From: a virus
Strand: one strand, 5' to 3'
DNA length: 30,416 bases
Virus record (IMG/VR): IMGVR_UViG_3300034072_002212
Span: 1 to 30,416 of that record
A program made the position numbers and the translations under genes. Numbering within the stretch: the first letter of the stretch is position 1; every line of letters begins with the position of its first letter. Below are positions 4,304 through 28,094 of this stretch, piece by piece. The notes under the pieces are model-generated. The model was not told the DNA's origin. It saw nothing but the letters and a program-made list of their open reading frames with translations, and did no database searches.

Positions 4304-5182
4304 TCAATAGCCGCCCATTGCGCGCCGGCGCTTGGTCATGCTGCTCTTGTTGTTTGCGGCGCGCTTGCTGCGGGCCGCAGCTTGGAAGGCCAAAAGCTCT
4401 GCTGCCAGCATGGGGTTGGTCCGCACATGATTGCGAGCTTCCTCACTGGCCTGAAGGATCAAGTCCAGCTTGACCTTGGCCAGACCGCCGCTGGGCGTCT
4501 TGACCATGTAGCCATAGAGCTTGGCATTGCGGGGGTTGCGACCAGCGACCTCGTAGATGCCGCCCTTGAGCTTGAGCTTCAGACCGATCAGCGGGTTGCT
4601 CTCTTCGGTCTTGGCCGCCATGCGCTGTTCCAGCAGCCCAGCGTCAACGAAATCCTTGCGCGGGTTGGTGTATGCGCTCGAGGGCACCCGATCATTCACG
4701 AACCGCTTGCGGAACCGCTTGTAGATCTGTCGGAAGAAGTAGCCGTGATTGCCCTCATAGCAGCCGATGCCGTCGAAGTAGAGGTCCTTGGGAAACTCGG
4801 GGCGCTCAACAAAGAGGGGATGGTTGCGACCGGCCTGCTTCATCGCGAACTGGATGATGTGGGCCAGTTCGTGGGCGACCAGGGCATCAACGGCCAGGGT
4901 CCAGTCAGTGGTCTCGAAACCACCGACCTCGGGCCAGGCATTGTAGGCCTTGTATTCCACATAAGCCTTGACCTCTTCGCGCAGGAAGTGGTAGCTCTGG
5001 AACTTGACCGTGTAGGCTCCCAGGCGCTGCGAGGCCTGACCCATGGGGCCCGAGGGCACGTCGACGATGCGGACCTTGAGGGGAAGCTTGCTGAACTTGA
5101 ATTCTTCCAGGGCCCACGCGACCTGCTCTGCTACGGCCTTGTCGACCTGTGCCTTAAACTGAGCTGCGGTGGGAAGGGCCAA
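4304..5182 (-). CDS. SprT-like zinc metallopeptidase
   Basis: 292 residues. HELAH at residues 104-108 gives the two zinc histidines and catalytic glutamate of HExxH peptidases. H146 in GNHGYFFRQIYKRF fits the third ligand of SprT/Spartan-type enzymes, where a HG-plus-aromatic segment follows. The C-terminal 110 residues are basic with a KGGIYEVAG segment that may be a small beta domain, and the end is very basic (KRRRAMGGY). SprT-like proteases degrade DNA-bound proteins; T4-like phages often carry relatives of unknown role. The start is TTG at 5182 with AGGAG six bases upstream; no in-frame ATG fits better. The upstream promoter region contains an 11-bp inverted repeat that covers this ribosome-binding site. 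Confidence 0.75.
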   Translation of the reverse strand: MALPTAAQFKAQVDKAVAEQVAWALEEFKFSKLPLKVRIVDVPSGPMGQASQRLGAYTVKFQSYHFLREEVKAYVEYKAYNAWPEVGGFETTDWTLAVDALVAHELAHIIQFAMKQAGRNHPLFVERPEFPKDLYFDGIGCYEGNHGYFFRQIYKRFRKRFVNDRVPSSAYTNPRKDFVDAGLLEQRMAAKTEESNPLIGLKLKLKGGIYEVAGRNPRNAKLYGYMVKTPSGGLAKVKLDLILQASEEARNHVRTNPMLAAELLAFQAAARSKRAANNKSSMTKRRRAMGGY

Positions 5183-17732: not shown

Positions 17733-18166
17733 CACTCGGTGATCTTGTTGTAATCATCGTCGATTTCGCCGTTCTCCTGCGCCTGCAGGATGCCGTCACC
17801 GATGATGTCGAGGTTGCTGTTGCTCATGCCGTGAAGCTTGTGGAACTCGATGATCTTCTCGCGATCATAGATCTCCTCGACGTCCACGTTGCTCCAGAAC
17901 TCTACGCTGGTCTCACTGTGCTTGCCCGCGAAGTCGCTGAAGTAAGCCGTTGTGCCCTCGAGAGCTGCCTTGATCTTGGCCCACTCTTCGCGAGTGTAGA
18001 TGACCTCGTCATAGAGGTCAGAGACACGACCATAGGTGAAACTGACCTTGACCAGCACCTTGTCCGCAAAGCGGAAGAGGTTCCGCTGAGCGTCGACCTC
18101 TTCCCAGGTCATTGCGAGGACACCGGCAACCACGATGCCCTCTGGTGTAACGCCTACATCAGCCAT
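17732..18166 (-). CDS. Unknown protein, 144 aa
   Basis: MADVGVTPEGIVVAGVLAMT opens the protein. An aromatic, probably beta-containing middle (KVLVKVSFTYGRVSDLYDEV) and an acidic tail (NGEIDDDYNKITE) follow. There is no recognised domain, signal peptide or membrane segment. ATG 18166 lies inside the end of the upstream gene (8-nt overlap), so the pair is translationally coupled. Confidence 0.7.
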   Translation of the reverse strand: MADVGVTPEGIVVAGVLAMTWEEVDAQRNLFRFADKVLVKVSFTYGRVSDLYDEVIYTREEWAKIKAALEGTTAYFSDFAGKHSETSVEFWSNVDVEEIYDREKIIEFHKLHGMSNSNLDIIGDGILQAQENGEIDDDYNKITE

Positions 18167-19865
18167 CGACCGCTTCCTTCAAAGTCTCGAGATCCAGAAT
18201 GGTAGTCTTCAGCTTGCCATTGTAGGCCAGCTTGAACATCATCGCCGCGCCCTTGTTGGGGAACGTGACTGCGACCGAGCGGAAGTCAGTGGCCTTTTTA
18301 TAGGTCCCCTTCTTCATCTGGGTGCTCTTGATCGCAGCGTCGATGAGCGCCTGCTCCTCCTTGGAGATAGCGGTCGTGTCGCCGTGGTAGCCCACGTTGT
18401 CCAGCTTCTCCTCGTCGGTCTCAGTGAAGACTACCATGCCCTTCTGACTGTCGAGCAAGTTGGCCTTCTCGAGGGCCTTGTAGGCGGTGCGGACAGACGA
18501 GCCATACTTGACCGTCAGCTCACGCAATTCCCAAGACCGCTTGAACCAGTCGTGGAAGTCTTCGACCGGGCCGATTTCCTGGCGGGCCAGCTTGTCGAAC
18601 TTGACCAACTCCCAGTCCTCGGTCATGTGGAAGGTCTTGCCGCCGCCGCCCCACTCGGGCAGGGATTCGTCAGCGCCAGGCAGACCGTCATAGTAGCCAG
18701 TCATCATGAGGATGCTGGTCTTGGCCTTACCGAGGTTGTCCCACTTCTTGCCCTTCATGAACGTGTCGACCATCTCCTGATGATCAACACCATTGTCCTC
18801 GTTGGCGTCCTCTTCGTAGTGGTTCTTCCAGCGATAGTTGCCCTTGCTGTAGTCGGGCGCCAGGTAAAAGCGACCCGTGGGCTTGTGTCGCAGGCACCAC
18901 ACGTCGACCGTCGGAATGCTCTCGGCCTCGATGAAGTCCTTGATCATGCTGTATTCCAGACCGACCAGCTTGTCCTCGCCGTCGAACTGAACTTCGGCCA
19001 CGTTGCCGTATCGCTGACCGTGCCAACCGTTGGGGTTGAAGTAGGTATTGAACTTGCCGCGAACGGTGAAGATCTCACCGGCCTTGATGCTGCGGTAGAG
19101 CTTGGGCGTGTATTCGCCCAGGGTCTCCTGTGCGTTCTTCCGCATTGCCTCGCGAGCGGTGTACCAGTTCTGGTGCGCGTTGTTGTCGCAATGATTGTGG
19201 TCAGGGCGGGGATTAGCCTTGTCCCACTTGTCGATGTGGGCGTGATAGGCGCCGTTGGGAGCACCATAGTAGATGTCCACGTCTTGCGTGAACTTCCAGC
19301 GGCTCTTGTCGACCATCTGTTGACGCAGGTTGACCTTGGGCTGCTTCTTGCGCGCCTCAGGCTTTTCTGCAATCTCGAGGTGTCGAGCCTGAGCCCATTT
19401 GTTGTTCTTCGACCAGCCGACCAGGACATCATCCGGCGTATAGCGGGACTCACCCAGCTTTGTATATTCATCATGGATGGCGTGTTGAGCCTTGTTGTCG
19501 GCCTTCCACGCCTTCTCGAATTCCTTTTCTTTCTCGGGAAGGATCTCCCAGCGATCGTATGCCTGCTGGGTCCAGGTCTGACCGCCACGCGAATGAGTGG
19601 TCGCGGGATAGTGGACCTTGTGGCTGAGCGACTTCCGCAGCGTCTCGAACTCTTCCTGCAGGGCGCCGATACGACGCTGCCGCTCGTCCTTTTCCTGTTG
19701 GGTCAGCATGTCCTCTGCGCTAGGAAGCGCAACGTCGCTGATCTCTACGATCACTTCTTTGCTGGTCGTTTCCTTGGAAGTGCCATACCAGCGGCTGATC
19801 AGGGGAGTGCCCTTGGGCACCTTCATGTAGAGGCCCTTACGGAAGGGACTGTCGGTGAGGTCCAT
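18159..19865 (-). CDS. Large unknown protein, 568 aa
   Basis: MDLTDSPFRKGLYMKVPKGT opens the protein at ATG 19865, with AGGAG six bases upstream; longer frames upstream run into the divergent HNH gene. A coiled-coil stretch (about 48-85: QQEKDERQRRIGALQEEFET) is followed by Trp-, Tyr- and His-rich regions (YYGAPNGAYHAHIDKWDKAN; HNHCDNNAHQNWY around 225-240) that could bind metal. A second mixed domain follows, and the last 60 residues look like a small alpha/beta module. No enzyme family is recognised. It is coupled to the 17732-18166 gene by an 8-nt overlap. Confidence 0.75.
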   Translation of the reverse strand: MDLTDSPFRKGLYMKVPKGTPLISRWYGTSKETTSKEVIVEISDVALPSAEDMLTQQEKDERQRRIGALQEEFETLRKSLSHKVHYPATTHSRGGQTWTQQAYDRWEILPEKEKEFEKAWKADNKAQHAIHDEYTKLGESRYTPDDVLVGWSKNNKWAQARHLEIAEKPEARKKQPKVNLRQQMVDKSRWKFTQDVDIYYGAPNGAYHAHIDKWDKANPRPDHNHCDNNAHQNWYTAREAMRKNAQETLGEYTPKLYRSIKAGEIFTVRGKFNTYFNPNGWHGQRYGNVAEVQFDGEDKLVGLEYSMIKDFIEAESIPTVDVWCLRHKPTGRFYLAPDYSKGNYRWKNHYEEDANEDNGVDHQEMVDTFMKGKKWDNLGKAKTSILMMTGYYDGLPGADESLPEWGGGGKTFHMTEDWELVKFDKLARQEIGPVEDFHDWFKRSWELRELTVKYGSSVRTAYKALEKANLLDSQKGMVVFTETDEEKLDNVGYHGDTTAISKEEQALIDAAIKSTQMKKGTYKKATDFRSVAVTFPNKGAAMMFKLAYNGKLKTTILDLETLKEAVDG

Positions 19866-19958: not shown

Positions 19959-20387
19959 ATGCGCGAAAAACAGGCTGCTTCTATTGAAGAAACCAAAATC
20001 TATATTCAATCTAGGATTGTAAAAGATCCAGAAACTGATTGCTGGATTTGGTCCCAATTGAAGGACAAGAAAGGCTATGGTCTAGTTGATAGGGACACAC
20101 GGATCTTTCGTCTAGCCAAAACTACACATATCCATCGCGTATCCTACCTAGCATTCAAAGGCAAGTTAGAGGAAGGAATGGTTATTCGCCATCGCTGTAA
20201 TAACCATTCCTGTTGCAACCCTGTTCATCTAGAACAAGGAACTCAGCTTCAAAATATGGCTGACAAATATGAAGCTTTGGGTCAAAGGTCAGATGCTGCG
20301 CTAGTTGTTCTCAAACGTCAGCTGCAAGAATCTTTAGAAGCGGTCGAACAAGAACTCAGCCGACGAAAAAAGAGCCCCGGCGCATAG
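19959..20387 (+). CDS. HNH endonuclease, probable homing type, AT-rich
   Basis: 142 residues. CWIWSQLKDKKGYG (28-41), THIHRVSYLAFKG (56-68), IRHRCNNHSCCNPVHLEQGT (76-95) and QNMADK follow the HNH_3 pattern of group I intron-type and free-standing phage homing nucleases. The C-terminus is a charged helix. The gene is plainly more AT-rich than both neighbours and lies on the opposite strand between them, which marks it as a recent insertion. Its last codons overlap the terminator of the ncRNA that runs towards it. Confidence 0.85.
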   Translation: MREKQAASIEETKIYIQSRIVKDPETDCWIWSQLKDKKGYGLVDRDTRIFRLAKTTHIHRVSYLAFKGKLEEGMVIRHRCNNHSCCNPVHLEQGTQLQNMADKYEALGQRSDAALVVLKRQLQESLEAVEQELSRRKKSPGA

Positions 20388-20537
20388 CACCAGGGCCCAA
20401 GGAAAGCAGGAGATCGGTCTCAACTGCTATCGGAAACTCGGTTGCAAGGTTATTGTCGGGGCCCTATTGTCGGGCTGGCGATGGACGGCCATCCACACCA
20501 GTAAGTCCCTATCGCCGGGCCCTTATCGTCGCCTTGC
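20365..20537 (-). ncRNA. Apparent structured small RNA, about 170 nt
   Basis: A TTGACA promoter, about 170 nt without a convincing reading frame, and a U-rich terminator define a compact unit on the minus strand. The 5' half folds into a long hairpin. GCAAGG pairs with CCTTGC, then comes a symmetric 9 by 9 internal loop (CGACGATAA opposite CGACAATAA), GGGCCC with GGGCCC, a second internal loop with CGATAGGG opposite CGACAATA, CTGG with CCAG, and GATGG with CCATC closing a small loop. The CGAYRATA-like element occurs four times, twice on each side. The end points are estimates from the promoter and terminator. No known RNA family is recognised. Confidence 0.65.
20366..20396 (-). terminator. 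Rho-independent terminator of the small RNA
   Basis: On the minus strand GCCCTGGTGC (20396-20387) pairs with GCGCCGGGGC (20383-20374) through ten pairs (two G-U), with a 3-nt loop, followed by TCTTTTTT. It overlaps the last codons of the convergent HNH gene. Confidence 0.85.
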
Positions 20538-20543
20538 CACACC

Positions 20544-20571
20544 TTGATAGCACCAGGAGACTTTGTGTCAA
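20544..20571 (-). promoter_or_regulatory. Sigma70-like promoter of the small RNA (TTGACA, 16 nt, TATCAA)
   Basis: TTGACA at 20571-20566, a 16-nt spacer and TATCAA at 20549-20544 on the minus strand, 4 nt after the stop of the antitoxin-domain gene. The spacer contains GTCTCCTGG, like spacers of other promoters here. No gene starts downstream; only the ncRNA follows. Confidence 0.7.
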
Positions 20572-21262: not shown

Positions 21263-21280
21263 GAGGTCTCCAGAGACAAT

Positions 21281-21311
21281 AAGGGCTCGCTGTATTTACC
21301 AGCGAGCCCTT
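21281..21311 (-). terminator. 12-bp hairpin with a late promoter in its loop
   Basis: AAGGGCTCGCTG (21281-21292) and CAGCGAGCCCTT (21300-21311) pair perfectly. The 7-nt loop reads TATTTAC on the plus strand, so the minus strand carries GTAAATA there. The hairpin lies 37 nt after the DUF350 stop and is followed on the minus strand by ATTGTCT, a weak U tract. It may end the envelope-cassette message, while late transcription starting in the loop would escape the hairpin. Confidence 0.7.
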
Positions 21312-21348
21312 AATGTGTTCTAGGCCCTCTACGGGCTTCTGTGGACCC

Positions 21349-21795
21349 TTACGGGACCATGCAGGCCGCCTGGAGGATGCCGATGCCCAGACCGATGCCG
21401 CCGATGAAAACGCCCGAAGCCGAGCAGTTGTCCTCGATGCGCTTCTCGATTCCCGAGAACGCCTTGGCGATCACGAAGAACACCGCCAGCTGGACGACCA
21501 GCACGACCGCGCCCCAGAGGGCCATGTCGAAGATGCTGACCGAGTGGCCGATGACGATCGCCATCGGAACCGCGAAGCCGAGGAACGTGCCGACCAGCTG
21601 AGTTGCTGCCGCGGTGTTGCCGTTCTTGATCAGCGCGAATTCCTTGTGCGGCGTGATCAGGGTGTAGAGCACCAGGAAGACCACGGCCAGGAGCAGCGAG
21701 GCGCCGAAATAGCCGAGGAAGTGCGGGAGGGCGTCACCGAAATAAGCGACGATCGGGTTGGTGGTGGCCTCAGTGGCCGGAGCGGTGGTATTCAT
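21349..21795 (-). CDS. DUF350 (YjfL-like) integral membrane protein
   Basis: 148 residues with about four hydrophobic segments (roughly 24-45, 64-84, 90-112 and 128-147). The DUF350 signature ALIKNGNTAAATQLVGTFLG followed by PMAIVIGHS, and WGAVVLVVQLAVFFV, is clear. In bacteria DUF350 proteins are found beside glutathionylspermidine-synthase-like ATP-grasp enzymes and DUF1190 lipoproteins (the yjfL, yjfC and yjfM genes of E. coli), as here. GGAG lies before ATG 21795, 13 nt after the upstream ATP-grasp gene. Its molecular role is unknown; inner-membrane location is expected. Confidence 0.85.
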   Translation of the reverse strand: MNTTAPATEATTNPIVAYFGDALPHFLGYFGASLLLAVVFLVLYTLITPHKEFALIKNGNTAAATQLVGTFLGFAVPMAIVIGHSVSIFDMALWGAVVLVVQLAVFFVIAKAFSGIEKRIEDNCSASGVFIGGIGLGIGILQAACMVP

Positions 21796-21808
21796 TGCTG
21801 CGATCTCC

Positions 21809-22987
21809 TTATTCGCTGTCGGGCAGGAAGTAGTGAGGGATGAAGCGAGAAGTGTTGCCCGTCACCTCGCTCACGTCTTCGCGGATGCCCATGCCCGACG
21901 GGCGGCCGCCTACGATCCAGCTGCCGATGATCGGCGTCATGCCGTCGTGCTTCGGAAGCGGAAGGTATTCCTGGTAGATGGCCTTGGCCAGCGCATCATA
22001 GCCGCGCTTGACGCCCTCGACGGCGACCTTACCATCCCGAATGATCTTCACGTCTGCGCCCTCGCGCGCCAGCATGGGCTTCTCGACATAGTTGCCCTTG
22101 AGCGGCGCGCTCTGCCAGTAGGCCGGCAGCAGGTTCTCGTGACCCTCGTAGAGTTCCCAGAGGATGGGCAGGATGCCCTTGTTCGAGAGAACCAGCTTCC
22201 AGGCCGGCTCCAGAACGTCCCAGGGCTCCTTGAGCATGAACTTGCCGAAGTCCTCGCGGACCAGCCATTCCCAGGGATAGAGCTTGAAAATCGTGTTGAT
22301 CGGCTTCTCGTTGAGATCCGTGAACGAGGTGCCGTTCCAGCCGATCTGCTCGATATCGAGATAGTCGGTCTTGAGGCCGGCCTGGATCGCGCAGTCCCGG
22401 AGGTATTCCGCCGTGCCCTTGTCCTCGAGGTTCTCCGCGACCGCCGCGAAGTAGAACGTCTCGTTCGGGCCGAGCACCTGGTCGCCGACATACTTCAGCT
22501 GTTCGATCAGCCGCTCATGGATGCTGTTGAACTGATCGAGCGTCTGACCCGTGCGCTGGGCATACTGTTCCATCCAGAACCACTGGACGACCGATGCCTC
22601 GAGCAGCGAAGTCGGAGTGTCGGCGTTGAACTCCAGCATCTTGGGAGTGCCATCGGCCGCCAGAGCGAAGTCGAAGCGACCATAGAGGTCCACGTCCTGG
22701 CGCTCCCAGGACTTCTTGATCAGCGCGTGGAAGTCGGCGGGGATGGCGAGCTGGCTGAGCAGGTCACGCTCGATCGCATAGTCGACTGCCGAAAGGCACA
22801 TGCGATCGAGGACCGTGCTGGCTTCCTCGATCTTGTCGACTTCGCCGGCCGTGAATTCATATGCGTGGGTTTCATCCCAATACATGGGATCGACACCGGG
22901 GTCGGTTGCGAGGGTGTGCCAGTAGAAACCGACCTTCTCGCACTGTGCCTGCCAATCCGGCCGGGCTTCAATTGCCAAACGCTTCAA
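21809..22987 (-). CDS. Glutathionylspermidine synthase-like ATP-grasp amidoligase (YgiC/YjfC family)
   Basis: 392 residues, the length of YgiC and YjfC. MKRLAIEARPDWQAQCEKVGF at the N-terminus, DLYGRFDFALAADGTPKMLE, FNADTPTSLLEASVVQWFW, FKLYPWEWLVRE, EGHENLLPAYW, and KGNYVEKPMLAREGADVKI are family hallmarks that supply the ATP-grasp nucleotide and Mg sites. The amidase domain of true GspS is absent, as in YgiC/YjfC. It probably joins an amine to a peptide or protein carboxylate; the substrate is unknown. The start is TTG at 22987 with AGGAG six bases upstream, behind a TTGACT-TAGACA promoter. Confidence 0.88.
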   Translation of the reverse strand: MKRLAIEARPDWQAQCEKVGFYWHTLATDPGVDPMYWDETHAYEFTAGEVDKIEEASTVLDRMCLSAVDYAIERDLLSQLAIPADFHALIKKSWERQDVDLYGRFDFALAADGTPKMLEFNADTPTSLLEASVVQWFWMEQYAQRTGQTLDQFNSIHERLIEQLKYVGDQVLGPNETFYFAAVAENLEDKGTAEYLRDCAIQAGLKTDYLDIEQIGWNGTSFTDLNEKPINTIFKLYPWEWLVREDFGKFMLKEPWDVLEPAWKLVLSNKGILPILWELYEGHENLLPAYWQSAPLKGNYVEKPMLAREGADVKIIRDGKVAVEGVKRGYDALAKAIYQEYLPLPKHDGMTPIIGSWIVGGRPSGMGIREDVSEVTGNTSRFIPHYFLPDSE

Positions 22988-27779: not shown

Positions 27780-28073
27780 TCAAGCCTTTTCGACAATAGC
27801 CTTGAGGGGATGCTTATAGGACTTGGCGACCGTGTTGGTCTCATAGACCTTCTGCTCGGCGACTTCCTTGCTGTAGGTGCCGCAGATGCCCCGACCCTGA
27901 TGGTGAACGTCCATGCAGAGCTTGTGCGCTTCTGCGTGGCTCTTGCTGAAGATCTCCATCAGCACCTGGATCACGAAGTCCATGGGCGTGAAGTCATCGT
28001 TCAGGATCACAACCTTGTAGAGGCTGGGAACCTTCAGCTTGGTTACAGTCTGAGTGTCGAGTGCGGTGCTCAT
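27780..28073 (-). CDS. clpS: ClpS-like adaptor protein
   Basis: 97 residues. SLYKVVILNDDFTPMDFVIQ (17-36), AHKLCMDVHHQGRGICGTYS and EVAEQKVYETN cover the full ClpS core. The N-degron pocket residues N25, D26, D27, T29, M31, V56 and H57 match E. coli N34, D35, D36, T38, M40, V65 and H66. The position of M62 is Cys53. ClpS delivers proteins with destabilising N-terminal residues to ClpA(C)P and blocks other substrates. A phage copy could redirect host proteolysis. ATG 28073 has AAGGAG seven bases upstream, behind a TTGATT-TATGTA promoter. Confidence 0.9.
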   Translation of the reverse strand: MSTALDTQTVTKLKVPSLYKVVILNDDFTPMDFVIQVLMEIFSKSHAEAHKLCMDVHHQGRGICGTYSKEVAEQKVYETNTVAKSYKHPLKAIVEKA

Positions 28074-28094
28074 GTGGTCTCCTTGGTTCACACC

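Follow-up and report, generated by a model that had tools for sequence, protein, structure and literature searches.

A probable small RNA gene conserved in giant T4-like phages carries two tandem internal loops resembling loop E of bacterial 5S rRNA

What is encoded by a short stretch of phage DNA that lies between a promoter and a terminator and holds no credible gene? The question is raised by the minus strand of the DNA analysed here, the first 30 kb (30,416 nucleotides, referred to as the window) of the IMG/VR virus record IMGVR_UViG_3300034072_002212, which comprises 181,816 bases. Read from 20571 to 20366, this strand consists of a promoter, an RNA of about 170 nt and a T6 terminator (Table 1). 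The original prediction had described such a unit, and both the sequence and a terminator scan, in which the stem listed in Table 1 scored best, bear it out. The promoter matches the consensus at ten of 12 positions, a level reached by 0.4% of shuffled sequences, and transcription would start at about 20537. Taken singly, promoter scores are unusual in two of the copies described below (p 0.004 and 0.009) and weak in the remaining copies, while the −35 element (TTGAC or TTGAT) is found at a constant position in 6/6 copies that bear the hairpin discussed here. Two other readings of the stretch were rejected. The ORFs within it, on both strands, are short and not common to relatives, and the plus strand folds more poorly (z −1.36) and has no T run. 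An 11-bp direct repeat, ATAGCACCAGG, occurs in the window over the −10 region (20547-20557) and in the terminator stem (20384-20394), and was not seen in relatives.

Folding of the 207 nt (minimum free energy −83.2 kcal/mol, z −2.65) returned the long hairpin that had originally been described, including the GGGCCC/GGGCCC helix, here termed P2, and a second internal loop with the same element as the first. The minimum free energy structure additionally pairs bases inside the promoter (GTCTC, GCTATC). This extension is not conserved and, if the promoter is used, it is not valid for the RNA, since these bases would then be absent from it. The repeated motif was found four times as predicted, twice on each arm and always in the sense orientation of the RNA. 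A first loop of 9 by 9 nucleotides, also part of the original description, holds for the window copy (CGACGATAA opposite CGACAATAA), where a 7x7 core is flanked by C-A mismatches, and does not extend to the relatives; since their loop is 7x7, the extra C-A pairs at the ends of loop 1 are particular to the window copy. The second loop is 7x7 in the window as well (GGCGATA opposite GACAATA).

Table 1. Position of the probable RNA gene, its predicted parts and the adjoining genes in the window
Feature	Position	Strand	Details and basis
Putative promoter, TTGACA-16-TATCAA	20544..20571	-	−35 at 20571-20566, 16 nt, −10 at 20549-20544; sequence
5′ hairpin (helices P1, P2, P3 and apical stem) with two loop-E-like internal loops in tandem	20444..20538	-	Folds, covariance model R1, covariation
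Loop 1, 5′ strand, CGACGAUAA	20523..20531	-	Loop-E heptamer GACGAUA at 20524-20530, occurs in 5S rRNA loop E
P2, 5′ arm, GGGCCC	20517..20522	-	Pairs with 20459-20464; compensatory changes in relatives
Loop 2, 5′ strand, GGCGAUA	20510..20516	-	AACGAUA, a 5S rRNA loop E heptamer, in five relatives
Apical stem-loop	20475..20506	-	Sequence variable; fold
Loop 2, 3′ strand, GACAAUA	20465..20471	-	Heptamer known in 5S rRNA loop E
P2, 3′ arm, GGGCCC	20459..20464	-	Pairs with 20517-20522
Loop 1, 3′ strand, CGACAAUAA	20450..20458	-	Heptamer GACAAUA at 20451-20457
Conserved linker between the two hairpins, GAGUUUCCGAU	20429..20439	-	Identical in L003 and L004; AGUUUCCGAU also in L273
Hairpin 2, GCAG-UU-GAG...CUC-CUGC	20406..20427	-	Third pair A-U here, C-G in L003/L004, G-C in L055/L056
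Putative intrinsic terminator	20366..20398	-	12-bp stem 20398-20372 (9 G-C), T6 at 20371-20366
568-aa gene	18159..19865	-	Downstream of the RNA throughout; no known domains
HNH homing-type endonuclease gene	19959-20387	+	Convergent to its neighbours; between the RNA terminator and the 568-aa promoter region
63-aa gene, antitoxin Xre/MbcA/ParS C-terminal domain	20767-20576	-	Upstream neighbour of the RNA; PF09722 (Pfam)

Relatives were defined as IMG/VR contigs with a tblastn-confirmed homologue of the 568-aa protein, and six were found: L002 (436 kb), L055 (465 kb), L056 (462 kb), L273 (417 kb), L003 and L004. Five of them (L002, L003, L004, L055 and L056) carry a homologous RNA with a promoter-like site and, directly after the RNA, a T5-T6 terminator of its own. 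Together with the window this makes six contigs in which the RNA occupies a common slot directly ahead of the 568-aa gene. Scans of the viral collection with sequence patterns, which are independent of the protein, found structured matches within the same set of contigs only. A covariance model finds exactly one copy in each of the six genomes (E 1e-27 to 7e-19), values that come from its own training set and thus fit by construction. The carriers of the RNA are a clade of giant T4-like phages.

The absence of compensatory base changes from related phages had been named at the outset as an observation that would speak against a structured RNA. P1-P3 comprise 14 pairs; 86% of the cells are standard pairs, and both partners vary in 6/14. 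Covariation scored 0.343, compared to 0.145 +/- 0.040 in shuffled alignments (0/500 reached it) and at most 0.07 in slid controls. P2 illustrates this well, as GGGCCC/GGGCCC of the window is replaced by GAGCCC/GGGCTC in L002 and by GCGCGC/GCGCGC in L003 and L004. In hairpin 2 the frame GCxG...CxGC is kept while its third pair varies as listed in Table 1. The 102-nt core gives a z of −2.45 in the window, and the homologous cores in L002, L003 and L004 give −4.50, −5.43 and −4.09, respectively. These observations strongly indicate that the RNA gene is real and conserved and that the hairpin structure is under selection, and the unit is probably a small RNA gene transcribed from its own promoter and ended by its own terminator.

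Two of the copies fit less well. P2 in L055 and L056 (ACGCGC/GCGGGT) contains one G-G mismatch, P3 is imperfect, and the unconstrained nearest-neighbour structure of minimum free energy is another fold in both. When the heptamers were forced to be unpaired, the expected hairpin was obtained in L056, where it cost 6 kcal/mol, and was not obtained in L055. The energy model takes loop E as an open loop, which is therefore penalised. The mismatched helices and the alternative folds were nevertheless counted against the mimicry of rRNA proposed below, as was the seventh contig, L273, whose slot does not contain the tandem hairpin. Since the 5′ domain of L273 differs, the hairpin is present in 6/7 and is replaceable.

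The unit found in L273 (2736-2990) has a promoter-like TTGACG, the linker AGUUUCCGAU, a tail hairpin, a terminator and a different 5′ hairpin. The copy in L003 harbours a structured insert of about 180 nt (4655-4840) between the 5′ hairpin and the tail; it is absent from the close relative L004 and has no match in Rfam or among tRNAs.

No family of Rfam 15 scored above the gathering threshold for the RNA, and searches of the window, L002 and L003 to E 10 gave weak matches to terminator hairpins only. This, together with the compensatory changes, upholds the original view of an undescribed structured small RNA. The 5S rRNA family RF00001 gave no match to E 10 in the same three sequences, so that by the Rfam model the RNA is not a 5S rRNA. 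INPHARED contained no near-identical or similar DNA, and plasmids gave a single match at chance level (E 0.6). The covariance model detected no convincing copy in the phages Phosso (E 0.235), XaC1 (none) and Atu_ph07 (E 1.37). A strict pattern applied to the GTDB genome collection yielded 42 stretches, all of them chance matches or tandem repeats without full pairing. A looser pattern gave 14 further viral stretches, among which the model reports only L066 and L069 (E 0.013); these lack paired arms and are coding-like, and were likewise rejected.

Both strands of both internal loops read RACRAUA, except that the window has one strand GGCGAUA and L055 has GAAAAUA. The signature RANNNUA, which together with a 7x7 loop also characterizes loop E in the helix IV/loop E/helix V arm of 5S rRNA, fits 23/24 phage strands, GGCGAUA being the lone exception, and 19/24 strands are identical to a heptamer of 5S loop E. 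For this comparison loop E was extracted by RF00001 from the 5S rRNA of 12 assorted genomes and of a set of Cyanobacteriota. The assorted genomes mostly have GATGGTA/GAGAGTA, and the Cyanobacteriota have GACGATA, GACAATA, AACGATA, GAAGATA, GAAAATA and CACAATA. Four heptamers (GACGAUA, AACGAUA, GACAAUA and GAAAAUA) are common to the phage RNA and cyanobacterial 5S rRNA, and so is the flanking C-G pair: a frequent cyanobacterial form, GC[GACGATA]...[GAAAATA]GC, has the pair found in P1 of L003, L004, L055 and L056, whose hairpins start with GGC[GACGAUA] and end with [AACAAUA or GACAAUA]GCC. When a descriptor was used to seek two RANNNUA/RANNNUA loops in tandem, together with complete stems, in 1.86 Mb of DNA, this RNA family was the only match. 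Tandem loops of the E. coli type (GATGGTA/GAKRGTA) were also sought in phages, and no structured copy was present among the matches listed. The heptamer identities and the restriction of the tandem descriptor to this family make the loop E assignment strong at the level of sequence, and there are good grounds to regard the internal loops as bacterial loop E modules, from which their geometry is inferred. The original suggestion that the motif forms paired protein-binding sites or tertiary modules thus stands as far as a protein-binding or structural module is concerned, and is refined to a known one, loop E of 5S rRNA.

The nearest matches to the terminase of this genome are those of the Sinorhizobium phage Phosso (64%) and the Agrobacterium phage Atu_ph07 (56%), which makes an alphaproteobacterial host likely. 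Loop E of rhizobial 5S rRNA is of the type GATGGTA or AATGGTA opposite GAGAGTA, whereas the phage heptamers are of the cyanobacterial type. The phage loops would therefore not be a copy of the sequence of the likely host, but an equivalent module, and this difference in type was likewise counted against the mimicry.

Ribosomal protein L25/CTC/TL5 binds bacterial 5S rRNA at loop E. One may tentatively propose a free-standing small RNA that acts by rRNA mimicry, a possibility to which we give appreciably less than an even chance. The RNA would then probably rely on host RNA polymerase and a promoter of the sigma-70 type for its transcription, and its 5′ domain would form a rigid hairpin in which the two tandem loops adopt the loop E fold with seven stacked non-Watson-Crick pairs each. 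These modules would be bound by a protein that normally recognizes loop E of 5S rRNA, and the RNA would either titrate the bound protein or dock at the ribosome and shift translation in infected cells. The presence of two loop E modules in one RNA makes a protein-binding RNA the best explanation and L25 of the host (CTC/TL5 family) the first candidate. L25 was found in Caulobacter, an alphaproteobacterium, and appears a plausible partner. Phage-encoded L25 was searched for and none was found, so that no partner from the phage itself is at hand, which was also counted against mimicry. The full proposition, that the virus RNA imitates 5S loop E twice as a means of capturing L25 or docking at the 5S region, is rather unlikely as it stands, and an effect on host translation is speculative. 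The conserved hairpin with its two copies of loop E suggests that the virus may use an RNA to engage the translation machinery of its host. Among the roles that were initially considered, the unproven one of a decoy would be the most compatible with the loop E finding, and that of a defence inhibitor was neither favoured nor disfavoured by any observation.

It is quite possible, and not far from an even chance, that the small RNA instead has another partner or that its loops are purely structural. Loop E would then lend the hairpin rigidity and tertiary contacts, and the functional part would be located elsewhere, for instance the linker GAGUUUCCGAU, acting as an antisense seed against a host mRNA. 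Loop E modules are common structural elements that also serve without any protein, a point that was counted against mimicry too. The linker core AGUUUCCGAU is exact in 4/7 contigs, namely the window, L003, L004 and L273, the last of which lacks the loop E hairpin. The linker has, however, diverged in L002, L055 and L056, and in 6/7 conservation of the RNA is highest in the loops. An antisense seed is also disfavoured since the complement of the linker has no target above chance in phage genomes. For ATCGGAAACT, the single-stranded stretch with the strongest conservation, the complement likewise occurs at about chance level in phage genomes, and in G000, G002 and G003 it was found solely within the RNA gene itself; the originally suggested role as a guide is thus without support.

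That the RNA is a cis-acting leader of the 568-aa gene, either an attenuator or a protein-binding leader in which a ligand or protein on the hairpin switches the terminator, is improbable. The constant linkage to this gene speaks for it, as does the distance of about 45-60 nt between terminator and ATG in L002, L003, L004, L055 and L056, and ribosomal protein leaders work by such logic (PMC7247131). A second promoter-like sequence (TTG...-16-TA...) was, however, recognized by eye between terminator and ATG in these five contigs and in L273, and in the window TTGTCC-16-TACACA lies between the HNH gene and the ATG. The terminator sequences differ among relatives and showed no conserved pairing with the hairpin on inspection. 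The HNH gene, which lies on the opposite strand and is absent from this slot in relatives, sets the RNA 500 nt apart from the 568-aa gene in the window, and a Pfam search of the 568-aa product gave no ribosomal protein. The second promoter-like site and the differing terminators favour the RNA and the 568-aa gene as two separate units.

A DNA-level element, with the four direct repeats RACRATA as sites for a regulator or replication initiator, would account for the shared direction and regular spacing of the heptamers (13-bp steps within a pair), but is very improbable given that the spacers change together and stay complementary, which a DNA site would not require, that the heptamers fit the loop E RNA signature, and that a promoter and a terminator frame the block. 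A processed 3′ UTR of the upstream gene in place of a product of its own promoter, in which operon read-through ends at the terminator and the hairpin is just a stable end, has in its favour that the 63-aa gene has its stop codon a few nt ahead of TTGACA, but can hardly be upheld since the upstream genes vary (a different small gene in L003 and L004, a 164-aa gene in L273) while the promoter and the RNA unit stay.

The proposed mimicry of loop E may be compared with several known systems. Unlike 5S rRNA, the phage-encoded RNA has two tandem loops in one hairpin and neither a three-way junction nor other 5S parts. The leaders bound by L20 and S15 are examples of RNAs outside the ribosome that have evolved to mimic the rRNA site of a ribosomal protein (PMC7247131), but these are cis-regulators of ribosomal protein genes, whereas the phage unit looks separate and its neighbour is no recognizable ribosomal protein gene. 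CsrB, RsmY and RsmZ sponge RNAs resemble it in the decoy idea, with repeated protein-binding modules in one small RNA, but the phage-encoded RNA has no GGA-hairpin modules and would address another class of protein. Protein PhiKZ014 of phage PhiKZ clamps the end of 5S rRNA and is a precedent for giant phages targeting the 5S region (PMC10914614), at which the phage RNA would by hypothesis also be aimed, although as an RNA resembling loop E and not as a protein. GOLLD and ROOL are structured non-coding RNAs, several of them carried by phages, but they are far larger and assemble into homo-oligomeric complexes (PMC12286853), and the present RNA has no Rfam match. Phage T4 encodes structured non-coding RNAs as well, the stable RNAs C and D.

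Few phage small RNAs offer a mechanistic handle, and the recognized rRNA module gives this one a concrete and cheap hypothesis, involving an RNA of 100 nt and one ribosomal protein. If true, RNA mimicry of the ribosome would join the routes by which giant phages take over translation, beside PhiKZ014 at the same 5S region, and the RNA would serve to probe the roles of 5S rRNA and L25. Even with another partner, it represents a new and well-delimited family of phage RNAs with a tandem loop E architecture unmatched in Rfam.

The neighbouring genes were also inspected. The 568-aa protein has no match in Pfam, PHROG or PADLOC, and its predicted structure (pLDDT 67.5) has no significant fold match, so that this neighbour gives no clue. 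The end of the HNH gene overlaps the RNA terminator, with its stop codon inside the terminator stem. The 63-aa protein comprises little beyond its toxin-binding domain, has no recognized toxin gene adjoining it, and is kept in L002, L055 and L056. Further along the window, a DUF350 membrane protein and an adjoining glutathionylspermidine synthase (21349-22987, minus strand) form a pair that is kept in L002 and L273, and the synthase is present in 137 records of the public phage collection. The DUF350 gene is followed by a 13-bp hairpin (21280-21312) that is T-rich on both sides and is probably a bidirectional terminator; a similar one occurs in L002. A 103-aa protein (27780-28091, minus strand) reads like a ClpS protease adaptor. 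At the other end of the window, two adjoining genes on the plus strand (153-2586) encode proteins of 395 and 412 aa with collagen-like (Gly-X-Y) repeats.
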